Positions 1-44,888 of a stretch of DNA of 44,888 bases are shown here, piece by piece. The stretch comes from Calditrichota bacterium (GTDB taxonomy: Bacteria > CLD3), in assembly GCA_008501735.1 (NCBI GenBank), contig QQUF01000047.1, positions 1 through 44,888 of the forward strand, in the 5' to 3' direction. The position numbers and the translations under genes are program-made. Within the stretch, counting starts at the first letter, position 1. Every line of letters starts with the position of its first letter. The notes below the pieces were generated by a model. The model saw nothing but the letters and a program-made list of their open reading frames with translations, made no database searches and had not been told where the DNA came from.

Positions 1-127
1 ATAACTCAAAGAAATGTTCACTTTGTGGGAAGAGAGGTTATAAAATGACCTTTCTTCCTTCATTGGAGACAGAAGAATTAACTTTTGAATTTGCACACGA
101 AAAGTGTCATAGGCAATATTTTAAAAT
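1..127. repeat. Terminal direct repeat, left copy (circular assembly overlap)
   Basis: Bases 1-127 are identical to 44762-44888. An exact 127-base overlap at both ends of a contig is the usual signature of a circular molecule assembled by k-mer graph. The reading frame passes through the join without interruption. Confidence 0.95.
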
Positions 128-203
128 GCTGAATTACAGCTTTAAAAATGACACGATTGAGAAACGCAAAAAGTTTCTTTTACAGAAACAACAAAAGAAG
201 TGA
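1..203 (+). CDS. Small CxxC (zinc-ribbon-like) protein, 3' part of a gene crossing the circle junction
   Basis: Reading from base 3 gives an open frame ending at TGA 201-203. Its start is the ATG at 44755, because the window ends repeat; the joined protein is 69 residues. It has a CSLCGKRGYK knuckle near the N-terminus and a second motif HEKCHRQYF, so a metal site is plausible but unproven. It is a clear paralogue of the protein at 20668-20880, sharing CSLCGKRGYK, TFLPSLE and NDTIEKR/DDTIEKR. It lies 64 nt downstream of a lipoprotein gene, the same neighbour as the other copy. I do not recognise a named family. A DNA, RNA or protein-binding adaptor role would be a guess. Confidence 0.8.
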   Translation, partial: NSKKCSLCGKRGYKMTFLPSLETEELTFEFAHEKCHRQYFKMLNYSFKNDTIEKRKKFLLQKQQKK

Positions 204-2464: not shown

Positions 2465-2471
2465 TAAAAAG

Positions 2472-2548: not shown

Positions 2549-2565
2549 AACACATTAATTAATCC

Positions 2566-2599: not shown

Positions 2600-2634
2600 A
2601 AAATTAAAAACTTAAGAAGTAAGGACAAAAAAAG

Positions 2635-7341: not shown

Positions 7342-7353
7342 GGAATTAAAACA

Positions 7354-7905: not shown

Positions 7906-7939
7906 TGAACTTTTAAAGAACAAAACAGGAGAGTTAGTA

Positions 7940-8977
7940 ATGGCTTTACAAAATCAATTTATCAAATTTGAAGAAAAAATTAGATTAACTTGGAATGATT
8001 CCAAACTCAAAAAAATTCGTGAAAAAGACGAAAGTATCCGTTCAGATATTAGAACCTCTTTTAAAGAAGAAGGTTATTCTGTTAAAGAGTTTTTTCAACA
8101 AGGGTCATATGCGACTAAAACAACCATAGCACCTCTTGATGAGGATTATGATATTGATGTGGGGGTTGTGATTGATAGTGAAAATGCTCCAAAAGACCCA
8201 ACCGAACCCAAAAAGAAGATTAAGAAAGTTTTTGAAAATAGAAATCTCAAAGACCCTAAAATTAAAATACCTTGCGTAACAGCTCAATATTTTAAGAAAG
8301 GTGAAAAACATTTTCACTTAGACTATCCGGTCTATAAAAAAGTTAATGATGAGTATTTTCTTGCAATAGGAAAAGAACACTCACAAGAAGAACAAAAATT
8401 ATGGGAGAAGTCAGACCCTAAAGGCTTATTGGAATGGGTAAAATCACCAAAAAAGTTTAAATCACAAGAAGAACAAGCACAATATAAAAGACTTATCAAA
8501 TACTTGAAAAGATGGCGTGATTTTAGCTTTTCTGAAGGAGATAGAAAAAAGGTTTATTCAATAGGATTGACTGTGATGGTTGGGGAATCATTTTGTAAAA
8601 GTATCTCGTCTGATGGAGATATATCTGATATTAAAAGTTTAAAAAAGACAGTAAATACAATTCTGAGTGAATATTTTACATTTACCGGAAATGACTCTCA
8701 AGGTAATGCTCAATATGAAATTAAAGTAAATTTACCTAAAAGACCTTTTAATGATATTTTTGTTAAACATGGGAAAACAGTTGGCACAACTATTCAAAGA
8801 AAATTAGAACAATTAAAAAGAAATCTTGATTTAGTTATAGGTGAGCCAAATTTAAAGAAACAATGTGAAATTTTGTCAAACAATGTTTTCGGAGATGATT
8901 TTCCTATTCCTGAAGACGATAAAAAGATGAAGAAATTTAAAGAATCCGGTTATGTTTCTTCTCCACAAGGTGCTTAA
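7940..8977 (+). CDS. cdnA-like: CD-NTase (cGAS/DncV-like nucleotidyltransferase), type II CBASS
   Basis: 345 residues from ATG 7940, preceded by AGGAGAG; the upstream GTG 7886 lies in a terminator stem. The nucleotidyltransferase signature is intact: G55-S56, then D71 and D73 (EDYDIDVGV), then third Asp D128 (HLDYPVY). By family, it makes a cyclic oligonucleotide on phage sensing. It ends in GYVSSPQGA; a small C-terminal residue fits the known Cap2-mediated conjugation of the CD-NTase C-terminus. The stop overlaps the Cap2-like start (TAATG), so the two are translationally coupled. Clade and product cannot be settled by eye. Confidence 0.92.
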   Translation: MALQNQFIKFEEKIRLTWNDSKLKKIREKDESIRSDIRTSFKEEGYSVKEFFQQGSYATKTTIAPLDEDYDIDVGVVIDSENAPKDPTEPKKKIKKVFENRNLKDPKIKIPCVTAQYFKKGEKHFHLDYPVYKKVNDEYFLAIGKEHSQEEQKLWEKSDPKGLLEWVKSPKKFKSQEEQAQYKRLIKYLKRWRDFSFSEGDRKKVYSIGLTVMVGESFCKSISSDGDISDIKSLKKTVNTILSEYFTFTGNDSQGNAQYEIKVNLPKRPFNDIFVKHGKTVGTTIQRKLEQLKRNLDLVIGEPNLKKQCEILSNNVFGDDFPIPEDDKKMKKFKESGYVSSPQGA

Positions 8978-10683
8978 TGCTTGAAAAAATCAAAACGTTT
9001 TTAGAAAAAAACGGACATTCTGCTGAAATAATAGATTCAAGAATCATTACTACACATAAGTTCAATGAATTTGTTATTCGCATAGCAGGAAAATTTTTTT
9101 TAGAAGGTAAACTTTGGTTTTCTTTGCCTGAGCTGTATTTGCTTGAAAGAGGCAAGTATGGCTCTTTGGCACATGTCAGTTGGGATGAAAAAGATGAAGG
9201 GTTAATTTGTGGTGGAGTGTCTGAGAATAGACATATTGATTATGAGCAACTAGATGAAGTTTATCTACTGGCTTTAAATAAAGCTATTGAAACAATTAAA
9301 TCTCTTCTAATAGATAAAGATAAAAATGAGAAGGAAATATTAGAGGAATTTTCTGCTCATTGGAATTTTTCAGTAAGTAGCAAAACTAAGAATAAAGTCA
9401 TTAGTTTTTTGGAACCATCAAATGAAATTCTTGAATTAACCTCTTATGTTTCCAATGACGATAAGTTTAAAGATTCGGTTATTTTTTATAGAACTGATGA
9501 AAAAAATCTAAACCCAAACTACTCTTTCTTTAAAAGATTGAAAAGTAAAAATAGAGGAAATAGAGATAGAAGTTTGTATTTACCAATTGAACAACCTGTT
9601 TTACCACCAGCACCAAATGAATCAATTTTGCAATGGTGGTTTAGATTGGTTGAAAACCTTCCGACAACTATTCGAGAAGATTTAGAAAATCAAATTTTAA
9701 AAAAAACAAATAAAGTTTTTTGGATACTTTCTTCTGTTCATTTGGGACAAAATAAGCATAGTTGGTTTTGTCTCAAGTTTGAAAGAAAGAACAAATCTTA
9801 TCTACCTTTGAGCGTTAATTGTAAAACAGAAGGTTGGAATGCTTTTGCATATAATGTAATTATTCATAACAAAGAATATATAAAACCAAGAGGAGGAGCA
9901 GAAAAAGGATTAGATGATATAACAGTTGCAATTATTGGTTGTGGTTCTGTCGGAGGAGAGATTGCAAAGCAATTAGCAAGTGCAGGAATTGGAAAACTAA
10001 TGTTGATTGATCATGACTCTTTAAATGTTGAAAATATTTATCGTCATACTCTATCATCTCAATACATTGGTTATGATAAGGTAAAATCACTATCACATTT
10101 TCTAAAAACCAATTACCCATACTTAAAAGTAGAGTATTTATTTTCTTTCTTAAAGATATTCCTAGAAAAGGATTATTTAAATTCAGTTGACGGTGTCATC
10201 GTTGCAACTGGCAACCCTACAGAAGAACGATTTTTTAACAATGAGTTAATTAAAAGAGATAAACGCCCTTGGGTAGTATATACTTGGGTTGAAGGTCACG
10301 GTATTGGTGGACATGCAATTTATGTTCATCCAACGGGTGAAGGATGTTTGAGTTGTTTATATAGAGATATGTATGGAAATAAATCTCTCAACTCCATTCA
10401 AAACTTTTTAGACTCTGAGCAAGATATTGCAATAAATATTGCAGGGTGCGGAACTCATTTTTTACCATATTCTTTTATAGATGCTATTCAGTCAGCAACT
10501 TTAGCAACAAGGCTTACATTAGAAGCATTAAACAATCAACTAAGCAAAAGTAGCCGTATTTCTTGGAAAGGCGTAGTTCCTCCGGATTTTAAATTAAAAA
10601 CAACTTACAGATATAAAAATTTTAAAAAATCATTAGAAATTGAATCATTATTTTGGGAAGGTTGCGATGTCTGTAATTTTTAA
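8977..10683 (+). CDS. cap2: Cap2-like E2-E1 fusion, ubiquitin-transferase-like, type II CBASS
   Basis: 568 residues. The N-terminal part (about 1-110) is E2-like, with Cys78 in GLICGG as the candidate E2 cysteine. A linker region follows, then an E1/ThiF adenylation domain from about residue 315, with nucleotide motif AIIGCGSVGGEIAKQL and LIDHD. GCLSC (Cys457, Cys460) and the terminal CDVC form a likely structural zinc site. Cys491 in IAGCGTHF is a candidate E1 catalytic cysteine. In characterised type II CBASS, Cap2 activates and transfers the CD-NTase C-terminus to primers or targets, priming cyclic nucleotide synthesis. It sits directly between the CD-NTase and the JAB protease. Confidence 0.92.
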   Translation: MLEKIKTFLEKNGHSAEIIDSRIITTHKFNEFVIRIAGKFFLEGKLWFSLPELYLLERGKYGSLAHVSWDEKDEGLICGGVSENRHIDYEQLDEVYLLALNKAIETIKSLLIDKDKNEKEILEEFSAHWNFSVSSKTKNKVISFLEPSNEILELTSYVSNDDKFKDSVIFYRTDEKNLNPNYSFFKRLKSKNRGNRDRSLYLPIEQPVLPPAPNESILQWWFRLVENLPTTIREDLENQILKKTNKVFWILSSVHLGQNKHSWFCLKFERKNKSYLPLSVNCKTEGWNAFAYNVIIHNKEYIKPRGGAEKGLDDITVAIIGCGSVGGEIAKQLASAGIGKLMLIDHDSLNVENIYRHTLSSQYIGYDKVKSLSHFLKTNYPYLKVEYLFSFLKIFLEKDYLNSVDGVIVATGNPTEERFFNNELIKRDKRPWVVYTWVEGHGIGGHAIYVHPTGEGCLSCLYRDMYGNKSLNSIQNFLDSEQDIAINIAGCGTHFLPYSFIDAIQSATLATRLTLEALNNQLSKSSRISWKGVVPPDFKLKTTYRYKNFKKSLEIESLFWEGCDVCNF

Positions 10684-11161
10684 GAAAAGGAAGAAAATAA
10701 AAGCTATTCAACTAAAAGTTTCACCGAATGTTAAGCTAGTATTCGATAGAAATAAGCAAATAGGAGAAAACACCTTAGAAGCTTGTGGTATTTTGATTGG
10801 AAGACATTCTGAAGATGGAAAAGAAATTAGAGTCGAATTAGCAACACCTCCTTCCAAATTCGATGTTAGAAAGAGGTTTAGTTTTAAAATTCATTCTAAA
10901 CATCATCAGAAAATATTGAGTGATAAATTTATTACCTCTCAAAATGAGTTAGTCTTTCTTGGAACTTGGCATAGTCACCCAGAACCAAAGCCAACACCTT
11001 CTGAGTGTGATATAAAAGATTGGAAAAAGCAATTTAAAAAGAACAAACATTTATTCGATTATATGATTTTTGCTATTGTTGGTCAAAAGCAAATAAGATA
11101 TTGGTTGGTCAAAAATGGTAATTATTCAAGGATAAAGAAAAAGTGTGTTTGTTATGAATAA
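10667..11161 (+). CDS. cap3: Cap3-like JAB/JAMM isopeptidase, type II CBASS
   Basis: 164 residues starting at ATG 10667, inside the end of the Cap2-like gene (17-nt overlap), with GGGAAGG upstream. The in-frame TTG at 10640 is less likely. It has a complete JAMM metalloprotease signature: Glu in TLEACGILIG, then GTWHSHP, then eight residues to SECD. Cap3 proteins remove the Cap2-made conjugates and restrain signalling. The overlap with both neighbours supports one transcript and coupled translation. Confidence 0.92.
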   Translation: MSVIFKKRKKIKAIQLKVSPNVKLVFDRNKQIGENTLEACGILIGRHSEDGKEIRVELATPPSKFDVRKRFSFKIHSKHHQKILSDKFITSQNELVFLGTWHSHPEPKPTPSECDIKDWKKQFKKNKHLFDYMIFAIVGQKQIRYWLVKNGNYSRIKKKCVCYE

Positions 11162-12221
11162 AATCAATCTTTTAAATTTTCTTGTCTCACTGTTTGATAG
11201 GTGGCTTGAATGCAATCGAATTAATCCGATGTTCAAGGTAGGGTTTCGTTTAATTGCAATTGGAATAAGTTTAATATGTGGTAGTGGAATCACCAAATTC
11301 TATTTTAATGATTTTATAGTTAATAAAATTTCTCGAACTGTTTTTATAGAGTTGTCGTCTGAGCCTAGCCAACTCCTATTGTTTTTAGGTTTAGGGTTTA
11401 TTTTTATTGGTTTAGGATTTTGTTTATGGGGAATTAAATCAATTAATCAAAATATGAACAAAAAGTGCTTTTATTATCTAATTGGTTTACCTAATCAATC
11501 AAATAATTTTCCATTAGAGGCTCTTCCTAAAATTGCAAGATGGTTCCCACCGAAAAAAGTTCCTTTATCAATAAACACAGAAAATATTGTTGAAATGAAA
11601 AAAAAGTTACTATTTCATTTGGAAATTATATCAAATAGAATCGAACAACCTGAAAAGGATGAAATTTACTTTGGTGGATTAGCAAGAGTTCCATACTTAT
11701 TTTTTATTGGTTATGGATTTAGGAATGCTCATAGTTCAATCACTTTGCTTGATCATAGTCACAAAACCACAAAATGGTTTACCTTAGAAGATATTGACAC
11801 AATTGGTTTAGACTTGAAGCCAATTGATAGGTCAGTCAAGCCAAATATGAATGGAGATATTGGAGTGGCAATTGAGTTCACTTGTAAAATACCTAAAAAT
11901 GATTTTCCTGAATCTTTAAAAGAGCATGTAATTAGAATTAAATTGAATAACGATGTAACACATAACCAAATCAAAAGTCGAATTGCTCTTGAGCGAATTG
12001 TTGATTCCATCTCTCAATTGTTGATTAGGTTAAACAAAAACTCTAAGACAATACATTTATTTATATCAGCACAATCTACTTTTACCTTTTCTTTAGGAAG
12101 AAGATACCAAGATGGGATGATGGGAGAGATACAAGTATATAATTATGATGCAAAAAAGAAAAAATATGTTTGGGCATTTAAATTGGATGGGGATGAAATA
12201 AAATTAGTAGAAAATTGCTAA
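11145..12221 (+). CDS. cap14: 2TM-SAVED effector (Cap14-like), type II CBASS
   Basis: 358 residues from GTG 11145, which lies about 12 nt after AAGGA; the ATG at 11154 is an alternative. Two transmembrane helices (about residues 25-47 and 76-97) precede a soluble region. The C-terminal HLFISAQSTFTFSLGRR, GEIQVYNYD and YVWAFKL match the SAVED domain pattern (Rossmann-like sensor of cyclic oligonucleotides). By family, ligand binding makes the membrane part disrupt the inner membrane and arrest the infected cell. It is last in the operon and overlaps the protease gene by 17 nt. Confidence 0.88.
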   Translation: MFVMNKINLLNFLVSLFDRWLECNRINPMFKVGFRLIAIGISLICGSGITKFYFNDFIVNKISRTVFIELSSEPSQLLLFLGLGFIFIGLGFCLWGIKSINQNMNKKCFYYLIGLPNQSNNFPLEALPKIARWFPPKKVPLSINTENIVEMKKKLLFHLEIISNRIEQPEKDEIYFGGLARVPYLFFIGYGFRNAHSSITLLDHSHKTTKWFTLEDIDTIGLDLKPIDRSVKPNMNGDIGVAIEFTCKIPKNDFPESLKEHVIRIKLNNDVTHNQIKSRIALERIVDSISQLLIRLNKNSKTIHLFISAQSTFTFSLGRRYQDGMMGEIQVYNYDAKKKKYVWAFKLDGDEIKLVENC

Positions 12222-12436
12222 ACACCCTGTGTTTTAAAACGACCGTTTAAAAACAAAAGAAAGTGTAACGACAATGCCTTTTTAATAAGTGTTTTTAAGG
12301 TATCTTTTTCATACCCCTTAAACAACATACCGAAATAATTATTTACACTCCTAGTAAATTTGGGCTTTAGATCTTGGTTGAGTAGAACCAATGCATTTAT
12401 TTCTACTCTTTTGACCATTTCATATTTAAAGCCCAT
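12218..12436 (-). CDS. Possible small gene at the end of the type III CBASS operon
   Basis: A 72-residue frame from ATG 12436 with TTGGAG 11 nt upstream. It overlaps the end of the NUDIX effector by 34 nt and, on the other strand, the last codon of the SAVED effector. It is basic and hydrophobic (KTLIKKALSLHFLLFLNGR) with no recognised domain. It could be a real minor gene or chance coding in the space between convergent operons. Confidence 0.3.
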   Translation of the reverse strand: MGFKYEMVKRVEINALVLLNQDLKPKFTRSVNNYFGMLFKGYEKDTLKTLIKKALSLHFLLFLNGRFKTQGV

Positions 12437-13239
12437 TTCGTATGTTCTCCAATATGATATAACTTTTTCCTTTGTCTATTATCATGACCCAAGTTCTTAA
12501 TCAATTCATCATCAGCCCATTTGTAATTATCAGTGTCACCTTTTTTTAATAACGTTTCTAATTCTCGCTCTTGTTCTCTTGTAGGAATTAAATCTAAAAT
12601 ATCATATTGAAGGATTTCAAAACAATTCCATCCTTGAGTCGTTTTTATCGGAGTTGTTACAGTTCCCACATAATTATAAATTACGTATGGAAAATTTTTA
12701 GAGCCTAAAATCTTTGATTGTCCACCTACTAGCTCCTCATAAAATTCTCGCCAATGAGAAACCTCTCTATCTTTTTTAGTATTGAACCAATCAATAAATT
12801 TTATGGCATTCTTAGCAGGAATAAAAATTGCGAAATCATCTTTAGTTAACCCTGAATTTGGCAATTTTAAATCGTCCATTGCATCAAATTTTTCCTTTAA
12901 CATACTTTGTGTACCTGGGAGCCTTTTATATTTTCCTCCAACAAGTTGGAAATGACCAAAATTTGAATTTTTAACTAATAAATACTTATCATTAACCTTT
13001 ATTCGATATAAATACGACATTGAAAAGCGAATATTTTCATCCTTTAATGCCAAATACTTACAATGAAAAAGTAGTATAATTCTTTTCCGATTTTCAACAC
13101 CTTCAAAAATTAGAAAATATATTGTACTAATACCTAAAATAATTCCTGCTCCCATTAGTTCATTTTTCAATCCAGGATCTAGAAAATGACCAACTAGGAT
13201 TAAAAGTATTCCTAAACCAAATTGAATTAAATACTTCAT
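12403..13239 (-). CDS. cap16: TM-NUDIX effector (Cap16-like), type III CBASS
   Basis: 278 residues. Two hydrophobic segments at the N-terminus (about 4-20 and 29-45) are followed by a SMODS-associated NUDIX-like domain. Recognisable parts are YLYRIKVNDKYLLVKNSN, the GHFQLVGGKYK strand-loop, and REFYEELVGG, a reduced Nudix box of the REFxEEL type. By family, the NUDIX-like domain is thought to sense the cyclic nucleotide and the membrane segments to act as the killer module. Its start overlaps the AAA+ stop by 4 nt. The degenerate Nudix box suggests sensing rather than hydrolysis, but this is inference. Confidence 0.85.
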   Translation of the reverse strand: MKYLIQFGLGILLILVGHFLDPGLKNELMGAGIILGISTIYFLIFEGVENRKRIILLFHCKYLALKDENIRFSMSYLYRIKVNDKYLLVKNSNFGHFQLVGGKYKRLPGTQSMLKEKFDAMDDLKLPNSGLTKDDFAIFIPAKNAIKFIDWFNTKKDREVSHWREFYEELVGGQSKILGSKNFPYVIYNYVGTVTTPIKTTQGWNCFEILQYDILDLIPTREQERELETLLKKGDTDNYKWADDELIKNLGHDNRQRKKLYHIGEHTKWALNMKWSKE

Positions 13240-14120
13240 TTAATTTTTGGACTTGGTTTTATGGAAGAAATAGTTTCTACAAGAATTTCATAAGTTAAAG
13301 ATTTATCTGGAAAAGCCTTTGCTACCGCTTCTGGTAGGATTTTAAGCCTTATATCAGAAAATGAATGCCCTAAATTCGAATTTTTCTCTGGGCTTGTTAA
13401 ATCAGCTAAATTATCAAGTTGTTCCTCAGAAAATTCAATTCCTTTAAGGCTTTGTGAGAAAAGCTCTTTTCGCTCTTTTTTATTCGGTCTTTCAAACTCT
13501 AAAACAATAGAAGCTCTTCTTATTATTGCTTCGTCAATAAAATGTAGCCTATTTGTTGACATAAAAACGACAGCACGTCCATGTAATTCTCTAATCTCAT
13601 CAATTTTCTGAATTAATGTATTTACAGAGGCTTTTTCTTCTTGGTGCATTTGCATTGTTGAACGAGTTGTTGCAATTGCATCTGCTTCATCAATAAATAA
13701 AAAGGCAATCCTTCTTTTACCTGCCTGTATTTTTAATTCGGCAAAGGCATCATTGACAAGATTTCCCATTTGTCCATGCAACCCTTCTCCTCTTACTCTT
13801 GTACTCAATTTTAAAAAGAAACCTTCTTTTTTGAGTTCTCTTGTCATTTTATCTGCAATTGACTCAGCAGAAACAGTTTTACCTGTTCCTGCATCACCAG
13901 CAAGAATAATTAAAGGGTATTTATCTTTTAACTGATTAATTATTGGGAGTTTAGTTTGATGAAACTTCTTACTCCACTCATTCAGACCATCTTGATCAAG
14001 TAGTAATTTTAAGTTTGTATAAATACGACTAAACTTACTTTCAAAACCAATTAAACTTTTTGTTCTTTCTTGAATTTCAGAATTTGGTAATTCTAAAGTA
14101 TTGTCAAATATTGTTGCCAT
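13236..14120 (-). CDS. cap6: TRIP13/Pch2-like AAA+ ATPase (Cap6), type III CBASS
   Basis: 294 residues with Walker A GDAGTGKT (75-82), Walker B FLFIDEAD (140-147), sensor MSTNR and an arginine-finger-like IRRAS. This is the single-ring AAA+ layout of bacterial Trip13 proteins. In type III CBASS it remodels the HORMA protein to its open state and so switches off the CD-NTase. It overlaps the genes on both sides (the HORMA stop by one base, the effector start by four), so all are translated from one message. Confidence 0.92.
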   Translation of the reverse strand: MATIFDNTLELPNSEIQERTKSLIGFESKFSRIYTNLKLLLDQDGLNEWSKKFHQTKLPIINQLKDKYPLIILAGDAGTGKTVSAESIADKMTRELKKEGFFLKLSTRVRGEGLHGQMGNLVNDAFAELKIQAGKRRIAFLFIDEADAIATTRSTMQMHQEEKASVNTLIQKIDEIRELHGRAVVFMSTNRLHFIDEAIIRRASIVLEFERPNKKERKELFSQSLKGIEFSEEQLDNLADLTSPEKNSNLGHSFSDIRLKILPEAVAKAFPDKSLTYEILVETISSIKPSPKIK

Positions 14121-14635
14121 TAGTTGTAACCCACTTTTTGTAATTCGTATCCATTACTAGCATACAATTGTTTATTATTTCTTTGTAGATGTGGAAATGT
14201 GTTATCAATCGAAGTCTTTACCCAACCAATTTTAAATCCATTCTCATTCTGAAATTTCTGCTTTTCGGTATGTGATAAACCATACCATTCTTGCGAATAT
14301 GAAAGAATCACCCTTAGATGAGTATTTGGAATATCTTCCCAATCATTATTTTTCCCTGGTCTATCACTTGCAGATGACGTTCCATTTGAATTAACTTTAA
14401 ATTTAGAAGCTTTGATTACTTCATTACTGGCATCATCAATTAAAGCAATGTCAACTGATTCTAAATATTCATTTTCAGCTAATTCAATTATATCATGAAA
14501 TATATCATCTACATATTTCATAGTCCATTTATCAGTTATGCGTGCAATCATTCTAACATCCGCTTCAAAATTTTCAAATGTTTTTCTAATATCAATAACT
14601 GTATAAGTTTTTGTTTGCGTATTTGTATTGTACAT
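14120..14635 (-). CDS. cap7: Bacterial HORMA protein (Cap7), type III CBASS
   Basis: 171 residues, starting 2 nt after the CD-NTase stop. The helix-rich N-terminus (TFENFEADVRMIARITDKWT) and the later SYSQEWYGLSHTEKQ and basic, aromatic C-terminus fit a bacterial HORMA domain. Sequence signatures of this fold are weak, so the call rests heavily on position between a CD-NTase and a TRIP13-like ATPase. By family it senses a phage peptide, closes its safety belt and activates the CD-NTase. Only one HORMA gene is present. Confidence 0.82.
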   Translation of the reverse strand: MYNTNTQTKTYTVIDIRKTFENFEADVRMIARITDKWTMKYVDDIFHDIIELAENEYLESVDIALIDDASNEVIKASKFKVNSNGTSSASDRPGKNNDWEDIPNTHLRVILSYSQEWYGLSHTEKQKFQNENGFKIGWVKTSIDNTFPHLQRNNKQLYASNGYELQKVGYN

Positions 14636-14637
14636 TT

Positions 14638-15615
14638 TTATTTAACTCCAAAAGTTGGTCCAAATACTCTTTTCCACTCTTCTATTGTATCACCTTCATT
14701 GTTCCTTGCTTGGGCAAAATTCAACGAATCAAAAGCATCTTCTGCCTCTTCAATTACTTCCTTCCACTTAGCCAAATTTAGCTTTTTAGCCACATTGTTC
14801 TCATTATTCGTATTGTCAGCAATAAAAATCGGTGTATCAAATTCAGGAACTTTATTTATAGCATTTTTAAACGAAATTACTGGAAAATTAGGTTTACTTA
14901 AGAATTGAAAGAATCTAATCACAGCCTCTTCGATATTATCTTCTACACCACATTCAATGTCTAAATAAGCAACTATCAGCTCTATTGAGAAAGAAGACAG
15001 TCCAGATTCGTTTTTAGTCTGATTAATTTCTTTGTAATTCTTCCACCATTTTAGCATTCTGACAATAGATGTATATGAAGAGTTACTTTTTCTTAGTCCT
15101 AAAGCAAAGTCTAATTGTCTTGAAACACTTGTAATGTATTTTCCACCTCCACCTCTTTCTGGTTGCCAGACATAATCCCCAAGTTTATTTATTGGAACAA
15201 CAGGAACAATATCAACCTCTAACCCTGTTCCCGAAAATTTTATTTTTATTGATTTATTGCCTTCCTTATCAACATCTTTTTTAATGTCCTTTTGCGGATA
15301 AATCTCCTCTAAATATTCTACAATAAAATCATGTACTTTTTTAAGATCGTTTTGAACATCCTCATCTCCTTCAATAAATAAGACCAAATCTATATCTATT
15401 GGATTATCTCCAGTAGGTCTTAAGATGGTATGTTTTTTCCAAGAGCCAGCCAATAAATATTTTGTTACTTTCAGCCCTGTTCTATCATCATCTTTAATTT
15501 TATTTTCTAATCTTTGCTTGAGATTAGAAATTTGGTCTCTGTACACCTGCATATTATCAGGTCTTAACTTGATTTTTTTTACAAAAAATTGTAATTGGGA
15601 ATTATCTAACTTCAT
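14638..15615 (-). CDS. cdnC-like: CD-NTase, type III CBASS
   Basis: 325 residues with an intact nucleotidyltransferase core: G57-S58 (LAGSWKKHT), D74 and D76 (NPIDIDLVLF), third Asp D135 (GLEVDIVPVV). An alpha-helical C-terminal OAS-like half follows (VRMLKWWKNY, SGLSSFSIELIVAYL). It is first in the operon; TTATAGAGGAACTT precedes its ATG. It is distinct in sequence from the CD-NTase at 7940, so the plasmid carries two unrelated cyclases rather than a recent duplication. The product cannot be read from sequence. Confidence 0.92.
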   Translation of the reverse strand: MKLDNSQLQFFVKKIKLRPDNMQVYRDQISNLKQRLENKIKDDDRTGLKVTKYLLAGSWKKHTILRPTGDNPIDIDLVLFIEGDEDVQNDLKKVHDFIVEYLEEIYPQKDIKKDVDKEGNKSIKIKFSGTGLEVDIVPVVPINKLGDYVWQPERGGGGKYITSVSRQLDFALGLRKSNSSYTSIVRMLKWWKNYKEINQTKNESGLSSFSIELIVAYLDIECGVEDNIEEAVIRFFQFLSKPNFPVISFKNAINKVPEFDTPIFIADNTNNENNVAKKLNLAKWKEVIEEAEDAFDSLNFAQARNNEGDTIEEWKRVFGPTFGVK

Positions 15616-15929: not shown

Positions 15930-16415
15930 CTAACAATTCCTTAAATGAGAACTCATAATTCCTTCGTAAGTCATTTCAGGAACTAAAGCAGGAAGAGTTT
16001 TTTTGATTGAAGAGCTTCCATAAAATTTCGGGTGGTAAATTCCACCCTTGATAATTTTCTCAAAATCCACCAAACGAGAAATGAAATTGATTTTTGAGGT
16101 TTTGTAAAAGAGAGAGCTTTCCAAATCATTGGTAGCATTGATAAATGTTGCTACCGAATAATCAGGATTTGTAAAATTCATTACATCATTTAGAAATTCA
16201 TTTACTCCAACTTGGGAATCCATTTCCTGAACCACTAAAACATCAGGCTAAATATTTTCAATGACTTTCTGAAACTTAAGATTTCTCAATGAGGAATTGT
16301 TTCTAGGATAACTTAACAAATTGTAAGTCGCTACTCTGATTGTATCAACAATTGTTTGTTGAGAGTAAGCAATATTGCAAGACAACAAAGAAATCAATGT
16401 GAAAAAGAGAATCAT
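15930..16415 (-). pseudogene. Broken chimera: endonuclease/exonuclease/phosphatase fragment joined to DUF2779-like fragment
   Basis: From ATG 16415 a signal peptide (MILFFTLISLLSCNIAYSQQ) leads into VATYNLLSYPR, then an in-frame TAG at 16248-16250, then PDVLVVQEMDSQ and LFYKTSKINF. These match the N-terminal part of secreted EEP-family nucleases. The same frame then continues as GGIYHPKFYGSSSIKK and LPALVPEMTYEG, which resembles the catalytic part of DUF2779 proteins. Two unrelated families are therefore fused and both cut short, and the first carries a stop. This is a relic of rearrangement. A restart at GTG 16235 could make a short product, but I see no reason to expect function. Confidence 0.75.
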
Positions 16416-20667: not shown

Positions 20668-20880
20668 TTAATTTTGATTCACTTCATTTGTAGATTTTAA
20701 GAACTGTTCCCTCTTTTCAATCGTATCATCTTCAAAAGAGTGTCCTAATTGATTAAAATATTTTTTTAGACATCTTTCATGGACAAGATCGAAATCTAAT
20801 TCTTTTGACTCCAATGAAGGAAGGAAGGTAAATTTATACCCTCTCTTCCCACAAAGAGAACATAGTTTTTCATCTCTCAT
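20668..20880 (-). CDS. Small CxxC protein, minus-strand copy of the duplicated module
   Basis: 70 residues from ATG 20880, chosen over the longer frame from 20934 because AAAGG lies 7 nt upstream and the length then matches the 69-residue paralogue at the window junction. It has CSLCGKRGYKFTFLPSLE, then HERCLKKYF and DDTIEKREQFL. It is the third gene of the module. Function is unknown; a metal site is likely from the CxxC and HxxC spacing. Confidence 0.78.
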   Translation of the reverse strand: MRDEKLCSLCGKRGYKFTFLPSLESKELDFDLVHERCLKKYFNQLGHSFEDDTIEKREQFLKSTNEVNQN

Positions 20881-20944
20881 TTCTTTACCTTTTATAAAAA
20901 TTTTATTTTCATTCTCCTGTTGATAATGCTCCAATTAGTTTCGA

Positions 20945-21565
20945 TTACTCTTCACTTTCAAACCAAGTAATTATGTAAAAACCTTGGTTTTCAGGAGAAT
21001 CAAACTTTACACTTCCAACACTATCAGCTTCTACACGAAAGCCTTTAATGTCAAGACATTCAGTTGTTGTATCAGAAATTGAAATCCATTCATCATCAAT
21101 GTTAAGCACCTGAGCATTCGTCACACTCAACACTGAAATTGTATCTTCAATACTCCAACTAACTTCTAAGTTTTCTTCAATTGTTACATCTCCATCACAT
21201 TCAATTTCAACAGATTCACCATCAATATCAAATGTTCCAGATTTCTCAAAAGAAACACCACCTTTAAGCCCTTTGCAACTGTAAGTTCCAGAACCATTTG
21301 GAATGGATTCCCAAACATCATCTGAGTTTAGTTTTTGAGCATTACTTGCATTTGTTACACTAATACTTTCAAGGCTTGACCAAGTCGCTTCACCACCTGA
21401 AAGAGTAATACTTCTTTCACAGTTTAACTGTGCACTGGAATGAAAAATCTGATTAGGTATTTCTGAAGAGTTTAGGATTTCTTCATTTGAACAACTATTC
21501 AGAGAGAAGATTAAAATCACTCCTAAAATCCCTGAAGCAAATTTTGGAAAACTTTTAGAAAACAT
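20945..21565 (-). CDS. Lipoprotein with two related beta domains, minus-strand module copy
   Basis: 206 residues. A lipoprotein signal (MFSKSFPKFASGILGVILIF, then SLNSCSNEE with lipobox Cys) anchors it to a membrane. The mature part holds two related beta segments: ITLSGGEATWSSLESISVTN... with NAQKLNSDDVWESIPN, and NLEVSWSIEDTISVLSVTN with NAQVLNIDDEWISISD. It is a close paralogue of the protein at 44064-44690 (the tract GSGTYSCKGLKG is identical). Its ATG directly abuts an 11-bp hairpin that contains part of the Shine-Dalgarno sequence. Function is unknown. Confidence 0.8.
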   Translation of the reverse strand: MFSKSFPKFASGILGVILIFSLNSCSNEEILNSSEIPNQIFHSSAQLNCERSITLSGGEATWSSLESISVTNASNAQKLNSDDVWESIPNGSGTYSCKGLKGGVSFEKSGTFDIDGESVEIECDGDVTIEENLEVSWSIEDTISVLSVTNAQVLNIDDEWISISDTTTECLDIKGFRVEADSVGSVKFDSPENQGFYIITWFESEE

Positions 21566-21607
21566 TTTGCACTGTCCTTAGGCGTTTAGTTAAACTGACA
21601 GTGCAAA
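21566..21607 (-). promoter_or_regulatory. Start-codon hairpin of the lipoprotein gene (minus copy)
   Basis: On the minus strand, TTTGCACTGTC, a 20-nt loop, then GACAGTGCAAA ends right at the ATG of 21565. The ribosome site AAGGA straddles the loop and right arm. The paralogous gene at 44064 has the same design, with two compensatory base-pair changes. Confidence 0.65.
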
Positions 21608-21837
21608 TTTGACTTGAAATGTGTATTTTTTGGGTTAGGCGGAGTCTTTTTTGTTAACCTTAGTTAAGAGATAATCACTCCTTTAATACTCTCTAATCAC
21701 ATATTTAAATTAAATTTTATGAAAAATGAGGCACTATTGCCAATTAGATGTAATTAGTATTCTTTAATACAAATATCTCTAGGTTGGATTTGAAAGTAAA
21801 AATAACACTTTTGGTATTTTGTTAGTTTTTTCGGTAT

Positions 21838-23376
21838 TTATTTTTCTAAAAGTTCGAGGATTTTTTCCCATAAAATCTCATAATTTATGATTTCCCAATT
21901 ATAGAAACTGTTTGAAGTTGTCGTTCTATACTCTTTAAGTTTTTTGAGATAGCTTTGGCTTTTTACCTTAATTTTTGGAACATCAAAGTCATTTTGGTAA
22001 GCAATATTTAACATTTTTATAAAACAATCCATTCGGTAATAATCATTCTTAACTAAATACCTAAATGTGTATTGTTTTAAGTTTTTTATTTTATTTGTTA
22101 ATTCATCTTCCATTGATTTACCACTTTTACTACTTCCATCAATAAGATTAAATAAAAGTTTAACAAAATGAATGGCTACATTTAGTCCTTTTTTATCGAG
22201 TTTTAAAAACTTTAGTTTATCAATTTCTGTTTCAACTTTAAATTTTTCTCTGAGTTTATTTCCTTCATTAACTAGCTTTTTATTCTTATCTGTCAGCAAT
22301 GAAAAAATTAAATAACACTTGAATAGGATGAAGATTTCCTTTTCAAACTGAAGAGCATTAAATCTCTTATGGGTTTCTATTTTATTAAGAATTTTTAATG
22401 ATTGCTCAAGTTGACCTGTCTGAAGAGCTAAAAGAAAATAATGATTTAGATAAAACAGATAATTTACAGAACGTTTATCTAAAATTGTTGCTATCTGCTC
22501 AGCAAGAAAATTTCCATTTTTATAATCTTGTAAATAAACAAAGCAAAGTAATTTATTGAGAGAAAAACTAGAAATAAGAAATGGAGAAATAATATTCTTA
22601 TGCTTCAAAAAGTAATTCTCAGCTTGTGTATACACATTAACAGCTCCTTTAAAATCACCTCCTACTTCATAAACCGATGACTTTAATTTAAAAAGGTTCT
22701 TCTGAAGTGTTAAAGAGTCATACTTTTTAAAAGTTTTCATAAGTTGAGTTATTTCTTGAACATACTCATTTGCTTCTTCAACTAAATAAGGTTTTATGGT
22801 TTTGGAGTTTACAAATTTGATATTGATTCTATACGCATATTCCATTGATAAAAGCTCTGCGGAATAAACTTTCTTAAAAAAAGAAATTTCTTCGTGCGTA
22901 GTTTGCATTGATTTTTCATCTCCTTTGAGAAGATAATAATCTGCAAGAAAACGAAGAGAGCTTAAAACAATATCAGTCATTTTATATTCTTTAGCTATCT
23001 CAATATTATTTTTGAGAATATCATATCCAATTTCGTAGCAACCGTTTTTCATAAACATCTTAGAAAGGAATAAATCTTTTTCACAATTATATGTAGCCTT
23101 TAATCTATCAGAAGATTCAAAACTAATATCAAGCATTAAAACAGTATCTAACATTTGTTCTTTTACTTTGCTTTTAAGAACTCGAAACCTTGTTTTAGGT
23201 GGGTTTTCATCAAAAATATCAACAGAAGCTTGTCTATCTGTCTGATACCTATCCTCCATAATTCCCTTGAATAGTTTTAGAGATTTGGATTCATTTGAAC
23301 TTGTATCAAAAAAGGTTTTTAATCCCTTAAAATTCTTCTTTTTTAATAACCTTGCAATATCTTTTAATTCGTCCAC
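21838..23376 (-). CDS. Alpha-solenoid (TPR-like) protein, minus-strand module copy
   Basis: 512 residues, GTG start in the context GAGGAAATAAAAGTGGAC, which is shared with its paralogue at 42282. It is almost entirely helical with degenerate TPR-like repeats (for example FKGAVNVYTQAENYFLKHKN, LEQSLKILNKIETHKRF). The N-terminus (IARLLKKKNFKGLKTFFD) and LKSKVKEQMLDTV resemble the roughly 500-residue helical proteins common in Bacteroidota, which have no assigned function. It is upstream of the lipoprotein and CxxC genes on the same strand, though 272 nt separate it from the lipoprotein. It may be a cytoplasmic scaffold or regulator. Confidence 0.75.
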   Translation of the reverse strand: MDELKDIARLLKKKNFKGLKTFFDTSSNESKSLKLFKGIMEDRYQTDRQASVDIFDENPPKTRFRVLKSKVKEQMLDTVLMLDISFESSDRLKATYNCEKDLFLSKMFMKNGCYEIGYDILKNNIEIAKEYKMTDIVLSSLRFLADYYLLKGDEKSMQTTHEEISFFKKVYSAELLSMEYAYRINIKFVNSKTIKPYLVEEANEYVQEITQLMKTFKKYDSLTLQKNLFKLKSSVYEVGGDFKGAVNVYTQAENYFLKHKNIISPFLISSFSLNKLLCFVYLQDYKNGNFLAEQIATILDKRSVNYLFYLNHYFLLALQTGQLEQSLKILNKIETHKRFNALQFEKEIFILFKCYLIFSLLTDKNKKLVNEGNKLREKFKVETEIDKLKFLKLDKKGLNVAIHFVKLLFNLIDGSSKSGKSMEDELTNKIKNLKQYTFRYLVKNDYYRMDCFIKMLNIAYQNDFDVPKIKVKSQSYLKKLKEYRTTTSNSFYNWEIINYEILWEKILELLEK

Positions 23377-24450: not shown

Positions 24451-25404
24451 TTAAATTCTGTTTTTCTTTACTAAATTCCAATAATGTTCTCCTAAGATAG
24501 TGAGTTTACATGACTTTGAATTCATAGCAGCATGCCACATGTGTGGAGCATCTATAGGAATAACGAGGTTTATTCTATTGTATTTTTGTAATAAGGCAAA
24601 TTTTGCTGTATTCTCTTTATTTGGGTTATCACTTTCAGGTTCAAAGGAAGGATCTAATTGGAATTCTTCTCCTTTTGAATTAAATAATGTGGTAATCTTT
24701 CTTAAATCTTCTAAATGAATTGGTGCTTGTACTTTTCTTAAAGTTGTAAAATTGGTCACATTAGTTTTAAAAACAGGTCTTTGTTCCCATAATCCTAAGG
24801 ATTGGTCAATATGAGCATAAATACTACCTGGAGTTATATCCCCAACTAAATTTGAAGCACTTCCATTCATAGCATCAACAAAAAGTGAGGTAAAAACACC
24901 TGAACCTTCTTCCTCAAGAGCATATTGATTTTCACTTGAAGCAGTTAATATTGTAATACCTTCTGCCAACATTGATTTATCTTCTTTTGGAGATGTTTTC
25001 CCCATAACCCCTGAGTGACAACTATCCAAAATTATTAATTTATTTCTAGATGGCGAATCATTAACAATATGAAGAAGTTCATTCATTGATAATCCATCAT
25101 CTCCATCCTTACAATCAGATGTCAATAAATAGCCTCCTGTGCTTTCGATGTACCCATGACCCGAAAAATAAAAAAGGGCAATATCTAATTTGTCTTTAAA
25201 AAGTTCAATAATTTCATTTTTTAACTCTTTTTTAGAAATTGCATTATCAGATCCTGTCGCAGTCTCTAATTTGACATCAAAATTTTTTGTGCCATCACTA
25301 TTTCTTTCTAAAACAGATTTAACCGAATATGCATCATTTACACAACCAAATAAATTTTTAATTTCTTCGTAGTAATCAATTCCTACAACTAATGCTTTTC
25401 TCAT
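24451..25404 (-). CDS. Caspase-like protease (peptidase C14), effector of a type IV Thoeris-like system
   Basis: 317 residues from ATG 25404; AAGGAG lies upstream within the end of the TIR gene. The caspase-like fold is clear: ALVVGIDYY, then catalytic His83 in FYFSGHGY and Cys129 in IILDSCHSG. A separate C-terminal region (about 225-317, ending HMWHAAMNSKSCKLTILGEHYW) could be the ligand-sensing part. In the recently described type IV Thoeris, a TIR enzyme makes a cyclic ADP-ribose isomer that turns on such a protease, which then degrades cell proteins. Here two TIR-like genes lie directly upstream on the same strand, which supports that role. Confidence 0.85.
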   Translation of the reverse strand: MRKALVVGIDYYEEIKNLFGCVNDAYSVKSVLERNSDGTKNFDVKLETATGSDNAISKKELKNEIIELFKDKLDIALFYFSGHGYIESTGGYLLTSDCKDGDDGLSMNELLHIVNDSPSRNKLIILDSCHSGVMGKTSPKEDKSMLAEGITILTASSENQYALEEEGSGVFTSLFVDAMNGSASNLVGDITPGSIYAHIDQSLGLWEQRPVFKTNVTNFTTLRKVQAPIHLEDLRKITTLFNSKGEEFQLDPSFEPESDNPNKENTAKFALLQKYNRINLVIPIDAPHMWHAAMNSKSCKLTILGEHYWNLVKKNRI

Positions 25405-25406
25405 AA

Positions 25407-25808
25407 TCAACAAAGCTCCTTAATTGCATCTACTATTTTGTTACCCTGCCATTTTACAACATCATCAGCATTATCTTTGACTAGCCTTGAAGTTCTTTCA
25501 GATCCCCAAGGTTCAACAGCAATAATTGGTTTATCATAATCTAATGCTATTTCAATTTCAGCTTCAATCCATCTACTATATGTTGCATATACACCTGCAA
25601 GAACGATAACTCCACTAGTACCTCTAATTTTAGATTCAATTGCATCATAAAGTTCTGAGTCTGTTCCTTCAGTATGAATTGGATCATCTTTAGGAACAGA
25701 ATGATCGTAATAGGATAAACCTTGTTCTTCAAAGAAACGAATTATCGTATCATAAGTATTTATGTAAGCCCAAGAATGACTAATAAATAATCTGTAAGTT
25801 TTTGACAT
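25407..25808 (-). CDS. thsB-like: TIR-like protein (MTH538/ThsB type), soluble
   Basis: 133 residues, essentially one TIR-like domain. It starts RLFISHSWAY and has GVIVLAGVYATYSRW followed by IEAEIEIAL, placing Glu84 at the usual catalytic Glu position. IIAVEPWG completes the fold. By family such proteins detect phage and make a nucleotide signal from NAD+. It lies 8 nt after the other TIR-like gene, and the caspase-like start follows 2 nt after its stop, so the three form one operon. Confidence 0.85.
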   Translation of the reverse strand: MSKTYRLFISHSWAYINTYDTIIRFFEEQGLSYYDHSVPKDDPIHTEGTDSELYDAIESKIRGTSGVIVLAGVYATYSRWIEAEIEIALDYDKPIIAVEPWGSERTSRLVKDNADDVVKWQGNKIVDAIKELC

Positions 25809-25816
25809 AAATCCAC

Positions 25817-26302
25817 CTAATTTAAAGTATTTAAAAATTCTGAAATATTATTCCAAGTCCAACGAATGACTTTTTTGTTTTTTAATTCTTTTGGTTTTGC
25901 CCCCTTGTCATTCCACTGTATTTGCATACCAATAGTTGGTATCTTTTCCTCTAATGCACATTTCATTTCCCAACGTGCCCCACCTGCTTCGTGAGTTTTT
26001 TTACTTATTAGTGCTATAACACCATCACATTTTTTTATTTTTGTTCTACATCTTTTTTTCCACTCATCTTGTTTCCAAGGTTTTTTAGCAGACATATCAA
26101 TAAAGTCGAAAGGTGAATTTTCTTTCCTAGCTTGGTCCATTAATCTGTCTCTAAAAAACTCATCCTCAATGGCAAAACTTATAAAAATTCTTTTTCTTGT
26201 ATCTTTAGGCTTTTTCTCACCAAAAATATAATGTAAAGCACCAAAAGCTAATAATCCCTTGGCAACAAATGATATTACTTTGCCTAGATTTAGATTACTC
26301 AT
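25817..26302 (-). CDS. thsB-like: Second TIR-like protein with N-terminal hydrophobic segment
   Basis: 161 residues. An N-terminal hydrophobic stretch (about 8-27; VISFVAKGLLAFGALHYIFG) could anchor it to the membrane. The TIR-like domain follows: RIFISFAIEDEFFRD, IKKCDGVIALISKKT, GGARWEMKCALEEK, with Glu112 as the candidate catalytic Glu. It differs clearly from the neighbouring TIR, so the pair may sense different triggers, as proposed for Thoeris loci with several ThsB genes. It is first in the operon. Confidence 0.85.
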   Translation of the reverse strand: MSNLNLGKVISFVAKGLLAFGALHYIFGEKKPKDTRKRIFISFAIEDEFFRDRLMDQARKENSPFDFIDMSAKKPWKQDEWKKRCRTKIKKCDGVIALISKKTHEAGGARWEMKCALEEKIPTIGMQIQWNDKGAKPKELKNKKVIRWTWNNISEFLNTLN

Positions 26303-42281: not shown

Positions 42282-43823
42282 GTGGACAAATTAAGAGATA
42301 TTGCGAGATTAATTAAAAAGAAAAAATTTAAAACTTTAAATACTTTTTTTGACAAACCTATTCACGAAACAAACACTCAAAAGCTTTTTGAAGGTGTTAT
42401 TGAGGAAAAGTATAAAACCGATTCACAGGCATCTTTTGATATTTTTGGAGCAAAGGTTCCTGACGAAAGATACCGAAAACTTAAAAGCAATGTTAAAGAG
42501 CAAATGCTTGATACTCTTATGAACCTTGATATTTCGGTAGGTGCTTCGGAGCGATTAAAGGCAACTTATAAATGTGAAAAAAGTTTATTTATTGCTAAAA
42601 TGCTTTCAAAAAATGGGTCTTATCTTGCTAGTTATGATATTCTGAAAAGAAACATTAGTTTGGCTAAAACATACAAAATGACATCTGTAATTTTAAACTG
42701 TCTTGAAATATTTTTAAATTATTATTCGATAACTGGTGATAAGAAAAAAATATTAGAGACTTTTAAAGAAATAAATTTTTTTAAAGAGGTTTATTTTGCT
42801 GAACTCCAAGCAAATGAATACTTTCACACAATAAGTATCAAGTTTATTAATTCAAAATCACTAAAACCAAATCTTGCAGAGGAAGCAAATAAATATTCTG
42901 AGGAGATTAGCAAAAACCTTAAAAAGTTCAAGAGATATAACTCACTAGTTTTAAATACAATTTATTTTAAAATAAAATCAGCTTCATTCGAGGTAAAAGG
43001 TGATTTTGGGAAAGCTCTTGCTGTTTATAATCAAGCAGAAAAATATTTTTTAAGAAATGAAAAAATTATCTCTCCATTTCTTGTTACACAATTTTTGTTA
43101 TCTAAACTAAATTGTTATGTTTTTTTACAAGACTATAAAAATGGAATGTATGTCGGAGAAAGAATAGCTCAACTATTACCTAATAGCTCCTTAAACTATA
43201 TTTTCTTTTTATTTGATTATTTCCTTCTGACGGTTCAGTCAAAAAAATTAACCCACTCCTTAAAGATTCTTGAAGAAATAAACTCCCACGAAAAATTTGA
43301 AATCTTCTTTGAAGAGGAGAGAGAAATATTAATAATTTTATACCATTATTTAATATTTGCACTACTAACTGATAAAGATGAAAGCTTGGTTAAAAAAGGT
43401 ATAAAATTGAGAGAAGAATTAGATGTGTCTTTACAAATTGAGAAAATTAAAAATTTAACTCAAGATAAAAAAGGGCTCAATGTTGCTATTCTAATCATAA
43501 AACTATTGTTTTGTTTGTTAGATAAAGATTATTCAAAAGCGATGGATAAAATAGAAAATCTAAGACAATATGCATTTAGGTATTTAAGGAAGAATGATTA
43601 CTTCCGAATGGACTGCTTTATTAGAATGCTAATTTTAATTGATTCAGGTGATTTTGATTTCCAAGTTGTCGAAGCAAAAGGCGAACAGCTTTTAAAAAAA
43701 TTAAAGGGATTTAGAACATCATCATCAAATAGCTTTTTAAACTGGGAAATTATTCCTTATGAGGAATTATGGAAGAAAACTATTGAACTTTTGAAAAAAA
43801 ATAAAAGTTCCTCAATGTCATAA
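42282..43823 (+). CDS. Alpha-solenoid (TPR-like) protein, plus-strand module copy
   Basis: 513 residues, GTG start in GAGGAAATAAAAGTGGAC, identical in context to its paralogue at 23376. The two proteins align over their whole length, sharing for example LKSKVKEQMLDT/LKSNVKEQMLDT, RLKATY and KKGLNVAI; the ends ENLRQYAFRYL versus KNLKQYTFRYL and TSSSNSFLNWEI versus TTTSNSFYNWEI also match. It is helical, with TPR-like repeats such as FGKALAVYNQAEKYFLRNEK. Function is unknown. It is first in the plus-strand module, 240 nt before the lipoprotein start. Confidence 0.75.
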   Translation: MDKLRDIARLIKKKKFKTLNTFFDKPIHETNTQKLFEGVIEEKYKTDSQASFDIFGAKVPDERYRKLKSNVKEQMLDTLMNLDISVGASERLKATYKCEKSLFIAKMLSKNGSYLASYDILKRNISLAKTYKMTSVILNCLEIFLNYYSITGDKKKILETFKEINFFKEVYFAELQANEYFHTISIKFINSKSLKPNLAEEANKYSEEISKNLKKFKRYNSLVLNTIYFKIKSASFEVKGDFGKALAVYNQAEKYFLRNEKIISPFLVTQFLLSKLNCYVFLQDYKNGMYVGERIAQLLPNSSLNYIFFLFDYFLLTVQSKKLTHSLKILEEINSHEKFEIFFEEEREILIILYHYLIFALLTDKDESLVKKGIKLREELDVSLQIEKIKNLTQDKKGLNVAILIIKLLFCLLDKDYSKAMDKIENLRQYAFRYLRKNDYFRMDCFIRMLILIDSGDFDFQVVEAKGEQLLKKLKGFRTSSSNSFLNWEIIPYEELWKKTIELLKKNKSSSMS

Positions 43824-44024: not shown

Positions 44025-44064
44025 TTGTGCTGTCAATTAATTAAACTCCGAAAGGACAGCACAA
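44025..44064 (+). promoter_or_regulatory. Start-codon hairpin of the lipoprotein gene (plus copy)
   Basis: TTGTGCTGTC, a 20-nt loop ending in AAAG, then GACAGCACAA, whose last A is the first base of the ATG. The AAAGGA ribosome site straddles the loop and right arm, as in the other copy (21566-21607). Confidence 0.65.
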
Positions 44065-44690
44065 TGTATTCCAAAAAAGTATCAAATGTTTTCCCAAGAT
44101 TATTACTGGGAGTGTTTTTTGTAACATCACTTTGCTCAATTAATAGTTGTTCTAATGAAGAGATATTAAATTCTTCTGAAAAATTAGCACCTGTTTTTTA
44201 TTCGACACTTTCTTGTGATAGAGATATTTCTCTTTCTGGTGGTGAAGCTACTTGGCAAAATCTTCAAAGCATAAGTGTTACCAATGCGAGTAATGCACAA
44301 AAATTAAATTCAAATGATGTTTGGGAATCAATACCAAACGGTTCAGGAACTTATAGTTGCAAAGGTCTCAAAGGTAGTATCTCTTTTGAGAAATCTGGGA
44401 CGTTTGATATAGATGGAGAAAATATTGAAATAGAATGTGATGGAGATGTAACCATAGAAGAAAACTTAGAAGTTATTTGGAGCATTATAGATACAATTTC
44501 TGTTCTGACTTCAACAAATGCTCAAATGCTTAATGTTGATGATGAATGGATTTCAATTCCCGATACAACAACAATTTGTTTTGATACAAAAGGATTTCGT
44601 GTGGAAGCTGATAGTTTAGGAACGGTAAAATTTTCTTCACCTGAGAATCAAGGATTTATTATTCGGAAATGGGATGAAAGTGAGGAGTAA
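44064..44690 (+). CDS. Lipoprotein with two related beta domains, plus-strand module copy
   Basis: 208 residues from ATG 44064, which follows AAAGGA; the earlier in-frame start at 44025 lies within the hairpin and would put 13 charged residues before the signal peptide. The lipobox is SINSCSNEE. The mature part repeats the two-domain pattern of the 20945-21565 paralogue, with SGGEATWQNLQSISVTN and later NAQMLNVDDEWISIPD. The near-identical stretch around GSGTYSCKGLKG suggests strong constraint or recent duplication. It is followed by the CxxC protein gene that crosses the window join. Confidence 0.8.
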   Translation: MYSKKVSNVFPRLLLGVFFVTSLCSINSCSNEEILNSSEKLAPVFYSTLSCDRDISLSGGEATWQNLQSISVTNASNAQKLNSNDVWESIPNGSGTYSCKGLKGSISFEKSGTFDIDGENIEIECDGDVTIEENLEVIWSIIDTISVLTSTNAQMLNVDDEWISIPDTTTICFDTKGFRVEADSLGTVKFSSPENQGFIIRKWDESEE

Positions 44691-44754: not shown

Positions 44755-44888
44755 ATGAGTAATAACTCAAAGAAATGTTCACTTTGTGGGAAGAGAGGTT
44801 ATAAAATGACCTTTCTTCCTTCATTGGAGACAGAAGAATTAACTTTTGAATTTGCACACGAAAAGTGTCATAGGCAATATTTTAAAAT
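44755..44888 (+). CDS. Small CxxC (zinc-ribbon-like) protein, 5' part of the junction-crossing gene
   Basis: ATG at 44755 follows an AAAGGGAACA-type ribosome site. The frame runs off the window end and continues at base 3 of the window, because 44762-44888 equals 1-127. The encoded start MSNNSKKCSLCGKRGYK matches the paralogue at 20880, which starts MRDEKLCSLCGKRGYK. It is the third gene of the plus-strand copy of the duplicated module (alpha-solenoid, lipoprotein, CxxC protein). Confidence 0.8.
   Translation, partial: MSNNSKKCSLCGKRGYKMTFLPSLETEELTFEFAHEKCHRQYFK
44762..44888. repeat. Terminal direct repeat, right copy (circular assembly overlap)
   Basis: Identical to bases 1-127. Removing one copy gives a circle of 44,761 bp. 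Confidence 0.95.

Follow-up and report, generated by a model that had tools for sequence, protein, structure and literature searches.

An inherited gene triad on a plasmid-like contig of a Calditrichota bacterium, a candidate signalling cassette built around a TPR-like solenoid protein

Here, we followed up three neighbouring genes of a Calditrichota bacterium, encoding an all-helical solenoid protein, a lipoprotein and a CxxC mini-protein, which an earlier note had found twice in the same DNA. Sequence comparisons support the view that this triad is a single inherited unit in this organism. As to its role, we tentatively put in first place a lineage-specific signalling cassette, in which the solenoid would be a cytoplasmic peptide-binding receptor or regulator with an exported partner.

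The triad and its copies in the host genome

The window (the whole stretch of DNA analysed, 44,888 nt) is the entire contig C22 of a 4.14-Mb genome in 59 contigs. All six ORFs of the two triads were confirmed at the positions and on the strands given in Table 1, with the copies mutually inverted and every member kept in both, as the earlier note had described. Between copies A and B, the proteins are 55% (solenoid), 75% (lipoprotein) and about 56–63% (mini-protein) identical, and over 477 nt the lipoprotein genes match as an inverted repeat at 81% identity, so that their duplication is not a matter of chance. A direct family search with the three proteins returned nothing convincing from Pfam, NCBIfam or PHROGs, and an Rfam search of the whole window gave no match.

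Table 1. Positions of the triad genes, start-codon hairpins and defence genes in the window
Feature	Position	Strand	Description
Solenoid gene A	21838..23376	-	512 aa, all-helical, TPR-like, GTG start; full-length relatives exist
Lipoprotein gene A	20945..21565	-	Signal peptide and lipobox LNSC, Cys then SNEE, two tandem NAQxLNxDDxWxSI units
Mini-protein gene A	20668..20880	-	70 aa, CxxC...HxxC, zinc-finger-like; its ATG lies within a longer TTG frame
Hairpin A	21566..21607	-	UUUGCACUGUC...GACAGUGCAAA; end abuts the start codon of lipoprotein gene A
Solenoid gene B	42282..43823	+	513 aa, GTG start
Lipoprotein gene B	44064..44690	+	
Hairpin B	44025..44064	+	Ends at the start codon of lipoprotein gene B
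Mini-protein gene B, part one	44755..44888	+	Runs on into 1-203 given a circular contig
Mini-protein gene B, part two	1..203	+	1-127 duplicates 44762-44888 (assembly overlap)
Type II CBASS operon	7886-12221	+	Cyclase, E1-E2 (Cap2), JAB (Cap3), 2TM/SAVED-like effector; PADLOC
Type III CBASS operon	12403-15615	-	2TM effector, TRIP13 ATPase, HORMA, second cyclase; convergent with type II
TIR-caspase genes	24451-26302	-	Two ThsB-type TIR proteins, then a caspase-domain protease; like a TIR-caspase Thoeris arrangement

The lipoprotein assignment made earlier holds: in the copies, as read from the sequence, a signal peptide with a hydrophobic core runs into a lipobox Cys (LNSC, INSC or FNSC). The residues that follow this Cys, SNEE or SNDE, bear a likeness, and no more than that, to the surface export signal of Bacteroidetes lipoproteins, in which polar and then acidic residues come after the Cys (PMC5080379). 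Internally, the lipoprotein carries two tandem NAQxLNxDDxWxSI...C...KG units (z about 10); its structure model (pLDDT 34) was too poor for use. The mini-protein, with its CxxC and HxxC motifs, resembles small zinc fingers and is a putative zinc binder.

The GTG start of the solenoid gene lies in a context, GAGGAAATAAAAGTGGAC, that is nearly identical in copies A and B, as noted earlier, and recurs on contig C11; solenoid starts in the host genome are never ATG, three being GTG and two, those of both copies on contig C48, TTG. The hairpin at the lipoprotein start codon, previously described for the window copies, is predicted at all four loci with two compensatory pairs: ten pairs were counted, in two of which both partners differ between copies, pairing holds in 97.5% of the cells, and slid controls gave no comparable double change. 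Its 3′ arm includes part of AAGGA, likely the ribosome-binding site, and the lipoprotein start codon follows directly (four of four loci). From four sequences, the evidence that this RNA structure is conserved is modest yet direct, and the hairpin probably controls lipoprotein translation.

The host genome holds five solenoid genes rather than two: besides both window copies on C22, there is a single copy on C11, and C48 carries a tandem pair. Lipoprotein and mini-protein genes occur genome-wide solely beside solenoid genes, one each per locus. The tandem solenoids on C48 (G000:C48:76650-81486), 91% identical, share a single lipoprotein gene and a single mini-protein gene. In a tree of 61 rows, the five host solenoids group together as a fully supported clade, which places the duplications within the host lineage. 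On C11, a net gain of four bases shifts and breaks the lipoprotein frame. By sequence recognition, we take the neighbours of the C11 module to be tRNA-Ser and GAPDH genes, and those of the chromosomal C11 and C48 modules together are presumably tRNA-Ser, GAPDH, pullulanase-like and exported-protein genes.

Bases 1–127 of C22 are identical to 44762–44888, and the first 127 bases of C11, reversed, are the same 127-mer, which thus marks an assembly node common to three contig ends. To the left of it, C11 and C22 are ~7% different across 2.7 kb. The earlier note had carried mini-protein gene B across the contig ends (44755 through 203); its frame is indeed intact over the join and has its homologue in copy A, and circularity is likely, although the presence of the 127-mer at C11 weakens the case, and a hypothetical C11-to-C22 join would yield the identical frame at that point. 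C22 encodes an RPA-type replication initiator, a ParA-like protein, a relaxase and a VirD4-type coupling protein, a gene set that makes a mobilizable plasmid, likely circular, its likeliest state; alternatively, it may be integrated at the chromosomal module. Four 32-nt tandem repeats at 37469-37596, adjoining the initiator gene (37614-39086), are probable iterons. The 93% identity of the modules on plasmid-like C22 and chromosomal C11 suggests recent plasmid–chromosome exchange.

Recombination between plasmid and chromosome could also have co-duplicated three unrelated genes as mere passengers with no common function. The 127-nt identical end that the plasmid-like and chromosomal copies have in common would fit this, as would the absence of the triad elsewhere among the genomes and loci searched. 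Yet the same gene order and hairpin persist at four loci whose solenoids are down to 45–55% identical, and the genes are under purifying selection: dN/dS of the solenoid is about 0.1 between C22b and C11 and 0.23 within the C48 pair, deeper comparisons, in which dS is saturated, still have far fewer changes at coding-changing sites, and comparisons of the lipoprotein and the mini-protein point in the same direction. We therefore consider the passenger explanation unlikely. The order of divergence is identical in all three genes (C11 with C22b, then C22a, then C48), and this parallelism, together with purifying selection, argues that the triad is one unit maintained for function. The "one functional unit" of the earlier note thus stands as an inherited unit in the host, by linkage, parallel divergence and purifying selection, but not as a general triad outside it.

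The solenoid family and its relatives in other bacteria

An AlphaFold2 model of the solenoid, built from two sequences, is helical throughout, with a mean pLDDT of 60 and a confident middle part. Foldseek listed many TPR-type solenoids for it (SNAP, kinesin light chain, LGN, MalT domain III, LapB and BtubC), none with E < 0.001, and one of 17 solenoid relatives matches Pfam TPR_MalT (2.7e-6). Neither Pfam nor NCBIfam has a dedicated entry for the ~510-aa family, a PDB sequence search with the solenoid gave no match, and no report of the family was found among open PMC papers. An N-terminal profile (A11), searched against PDB and Pfam for an HTH or a Rap-type helical domain, returned nothing convincing, a result that concerns sequence only, the N terminus of the model having pLDDT < 50. 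For an N-terminal winged helix, a weak match of the full profile to Sec62 (E 0.012) was not reproduced with A11, and we dropped the idea. Judged by sequence, the solenoid is a member of a widespread TPR-like family without a name.

Neither solenoid nor lipoprotein was found in the other eight genomes of the host phylum, phage records yielded no solenoid, and a solenoid profile (A4) found none beyond the host genome among 386 genomes spread over the domain. Degenerate-peptide scans of genome and viral contigs gave no relatives either; such scans depend on exact matches of short words, and the family that a profile later found had escaped them. A tblastn match on a Hymenobacter plasmid led to a full-length solenoid homologue (probability 98.8%), and a profile including this homologue detected the solenoid in 25 of 396 genomes from the phylum of genome G340; in one family, 21 of 23 genomes encode the protein. 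From its strong type-IX sorting tails and its kinship with Hymenobacter in the tree, the phylum of G340 is probably Bacteroidota. Some relatives adjoin genes that we take, by recognition, to be rpsB/tsf and other housekeeping genes.

The earlier note had looked to co-occurrence of the three families elsewhere, and this was largely not what we found: besides the solenoid-free genomes of the host phylum, profile searches of 36 to about 40 loci that hold the solenoid in other bacteria, with the window copies as positive control, gave no relative of the lipoprotein or the mini-protein. Within what was searched, the triad is therefore specific to the host lineage.

Micro-peptide genes beside solenoid relatives and the role of the triad

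Upstream of many solenoid relatives, on the opposite strand, lies a small ORF whose product starts with M-x-L-x-x-A-I-L-x-Y-F-G and ends with IDRxED; other divergent small ORFs encode a similar hydrophobic start followed by Gly-Trp repeats. A search of 627 kb (2,881 ORFs) with a peptide profile built from nine seeds yielded 13 matches with E < 0.01, all of them divergent and upstream of a solenoid gene, and 12 of the 13 within 1.2 kb. Several matches were seeds; those that were not are at L063, L069, L071, L075, L079, L085 and L094, together with the third copy at L066, the partner at L094 being a solenoid fragment (G615:C137:9-326). Counted by eye, about 19 of about 43 solenoid loci outside the host genome carry the micro-peptide or its repeat form (L059, L060, L061, L063, L065, L066, L069, L071, L074, L075, L079, L080, L085, L087, L094, L098, L101, L103 and L121), under simple ORF rules fixed after the first examples had been seen, so that the nine-seed profile test is the stricter evidence.

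The micro-peptides have IDRxED tails or tandem IDRGENN or GGWGGD units. One such unit, present three times, is PYLIDRGENNR. By locus, there are six units of TGAGGWGGD at L060 with a similar unit at L061, three of PYLIDRGENNRS at L069, three of NPYIIDRGENNRQ at L094 and a two-unit form at L103; at L066, three peptide genes accompany the solenoid. Between the L060 units, the amino acids are constant while third codon positions vary, the differences being mostly synonymous, and the two peptides of L098 have 11, 7 and 35 differing sites by codon position; on both counts, the peptides look translated and selected. Downstream of the solenoid gene at L072 (7150-8109), two neighbouring ORFs consist of many NIVVEDIITR repeats.

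The divergent neighbour of the solenoid at G547 is a larger, secreted-looking protein. The window loci have no such micro-peptide gene, and the neighbour there is the lipoprotein, which has no similarity to the larger partners of G547 and no detectable kinship to any solenoid partner elsewhere. The solenoid is thus often accompanied by the gene of an exported or hydrophobic partner, a place that the lipoprotein takes in the window.

If the triad is a signalling cassette, the solenoid would bind a peptide in the cytoplasm, a ligand that could be the small peptide itself or could derive from the lipoprotein or its signal peptide. In its peptide-bound form, the solenoid would control the exported partner, and genes nearby may be under its control too. 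The start-codon hairpin would then provide translational control of lipoprotein synthesis, and the mini-protein may be a zinc-binding adaptor or regulator within the same circuit. Across the family, the solenoid gene often faces a small peptide gene; in the host, the linked exported product is instead the repeat lipoprotein, the mini-protein is an addition, and the unit was duplicated and kept. The folded domain of the lipoprotein lies outside the cytoplasm and cannot be reached by a cytoplasmic solenoid unless it is processed. Counting against a receptor, about half of the relatives are without such a peptide by the rules used.

The hydrophobic micro-peptides have acidic starts, without the positive charge normal at the beginning of a signal peptide, and a hydrophobic start is missing altogether from some repeat peptides, so the micro-peptides may never leave the cell. 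For this reason we keep, ranked second after the receptor, the possibility that the solenoid serves envelope housekeeping as a TPR scaffold or chaperone, which would handle or regulate its exported neighbour (assembly, quality control or local translation) with no cell-to-cell signal, or whose partner products may stay inside, bound by the TPR protein. TPR domains bind acidic C-terminal tails, and the acidic C termini seen here (IDRxED, GGD, ESEE) resemble such tails; moreover, the TPR proteins LapB and BtubC are among the structural neighbours, and the exported partner varies by lineage. However, precursors made of repeat units are more typical of signals, as is the presence of several peptide genes beside one solenoid (L066), and the multiplication of solenoid paralogues inside one genome likewise speaks against a scaffold, which leaves this explanation doubtful.

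Hydrophobic small ORFs and tandem cores, such as those encoding the micro-peptides, also occur among toxins and RiPP precursors, and the gene pairs are compact and divergent. The peptides might accordingly be toxic or modified, as in toxin–antitoxin or bacteriocin/RiPP-like systems, with the solenoid as antidote or regulator and the lipoprotein as the window's version of the peptide or as an immunity protein. We regard this as quite improbable, as an unsystematic look at the neighbours showed no family of toxins or modification enzymes, the window genes have no PADLOC or Pfam match, and a 208-aa lipoprotein with a duplicated domain is not toxin-like.

Peptide quorum sensing of the RRNPP type relies on intracellular TPR receptors and is known from Bacillota, which are Gram-positive, and from their plasmids and phages. 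Its layout joins a TPR-like receptor gene to a linked small exported peptide gene (PMC10075063, PMC9765709), tandem propeptides are known among RRNPPA systems (PMC11343458), and the scope of a large RRNPP survey was Firmicutes and viruses only (PMC10075063). Where a micro-peptide gene is present, the solenoid relatives are like RRNPP(A) systems (Rap, Rgg, NprR, PlcR, PrgX and AimR) in their predicted TPR-like gene beside a gene for a small, putatively exported peptide, their multiple copies, their plasmid carriage and their tandem units, and by this layout the module may work as RRNPP receptors do. They are unlike them in that sequence and HMM searches with the solenoid gave no match, a DNA-binding domain was looked for but not found, the phyla are different, the relatives' peptides are atypical with their acidic starts, and the window has a lipoprotein in place of a peptide gene; because of the missing match, DNA-binding domain and window peptide gene, and the other phyla, we do not file the module as an RRNPP member.

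In the enterococcal pheromone plasmid pCF10 (PrgX/cCF10), the peptide cCF10 comes from a lipoprotein, whose signal peptide ends in it (PMC7117660), and the window likewise combines a mobilizable-plasmid-like contig, a TPR-like gene and a lipoprotein as a possible peptide source. Here, however, the lipoprotein is conserved in its mature domain rather than in its signal peptide, there is no homology, the triad has chromosomal copies, and no uptake or inhibitor genes were identified. MalT-like regulators share a TPR region, one relative matching Pfam TPR_MalT, but the solenoid family, at ~510 aa full length, had no ATPase or HTH domain that we could find.

More broadly, TPR-like receptors and divergent micro-peptides could constitute a hitherto undescribed peptide-signalling family of Bacteroidota and related Gram-negative phyla, of which the window triad would be a plasmid-carried, lineage-specific offshoot; we hold this wider proposal to be somewhat doubtful. 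If it is true, peptide communication in Gram-negative Bacteroidota-like bacteria becomes directly testable, with receptor, candidate peptides and motifs named, and the receptor-like half would be carried, in a phylum other than that of the Bacteroidota-like genomes, by a mobilizable plasmid rich in defence genes. If signalling is not involved, the conserved pair of TPR protein and micro-peptide still needs explaining.

Defence genes and other features of the contig

Two CBASS operons and TIR and caspase genes on the same contig (Table 1) would suit an anti-phage module lying within a defence island. No PADLOC model, however, matches solenoid, lipoprotein or mini-protein, and the chromosomal copies on C11 and C48, as well as several relatives, sit among what we take, by recognition, to be ordinary genes. 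What links the triad to defence is its address on the contig alone; a defence role is not supported, and we consider it very improbable. From the envelope-linked sensing, defence or competition suggested earlier, sensing emerges as the best fit, whereas defence falls away for want of a PADLOC match and with relatives among housekeeping genes.

The type II and type III CBASS operons lie back to back on one mobile contig. Directly after mini-protein gene B, the stretch 200-7851 (+) encodes two large proteins, each ending in a type-IX-like sorting tail (QNYPNPFNPTT), besides a small secreted protein. At 15930-16235 (-), an orphan 101-aa ORF resembles a remnant of a larger gene.
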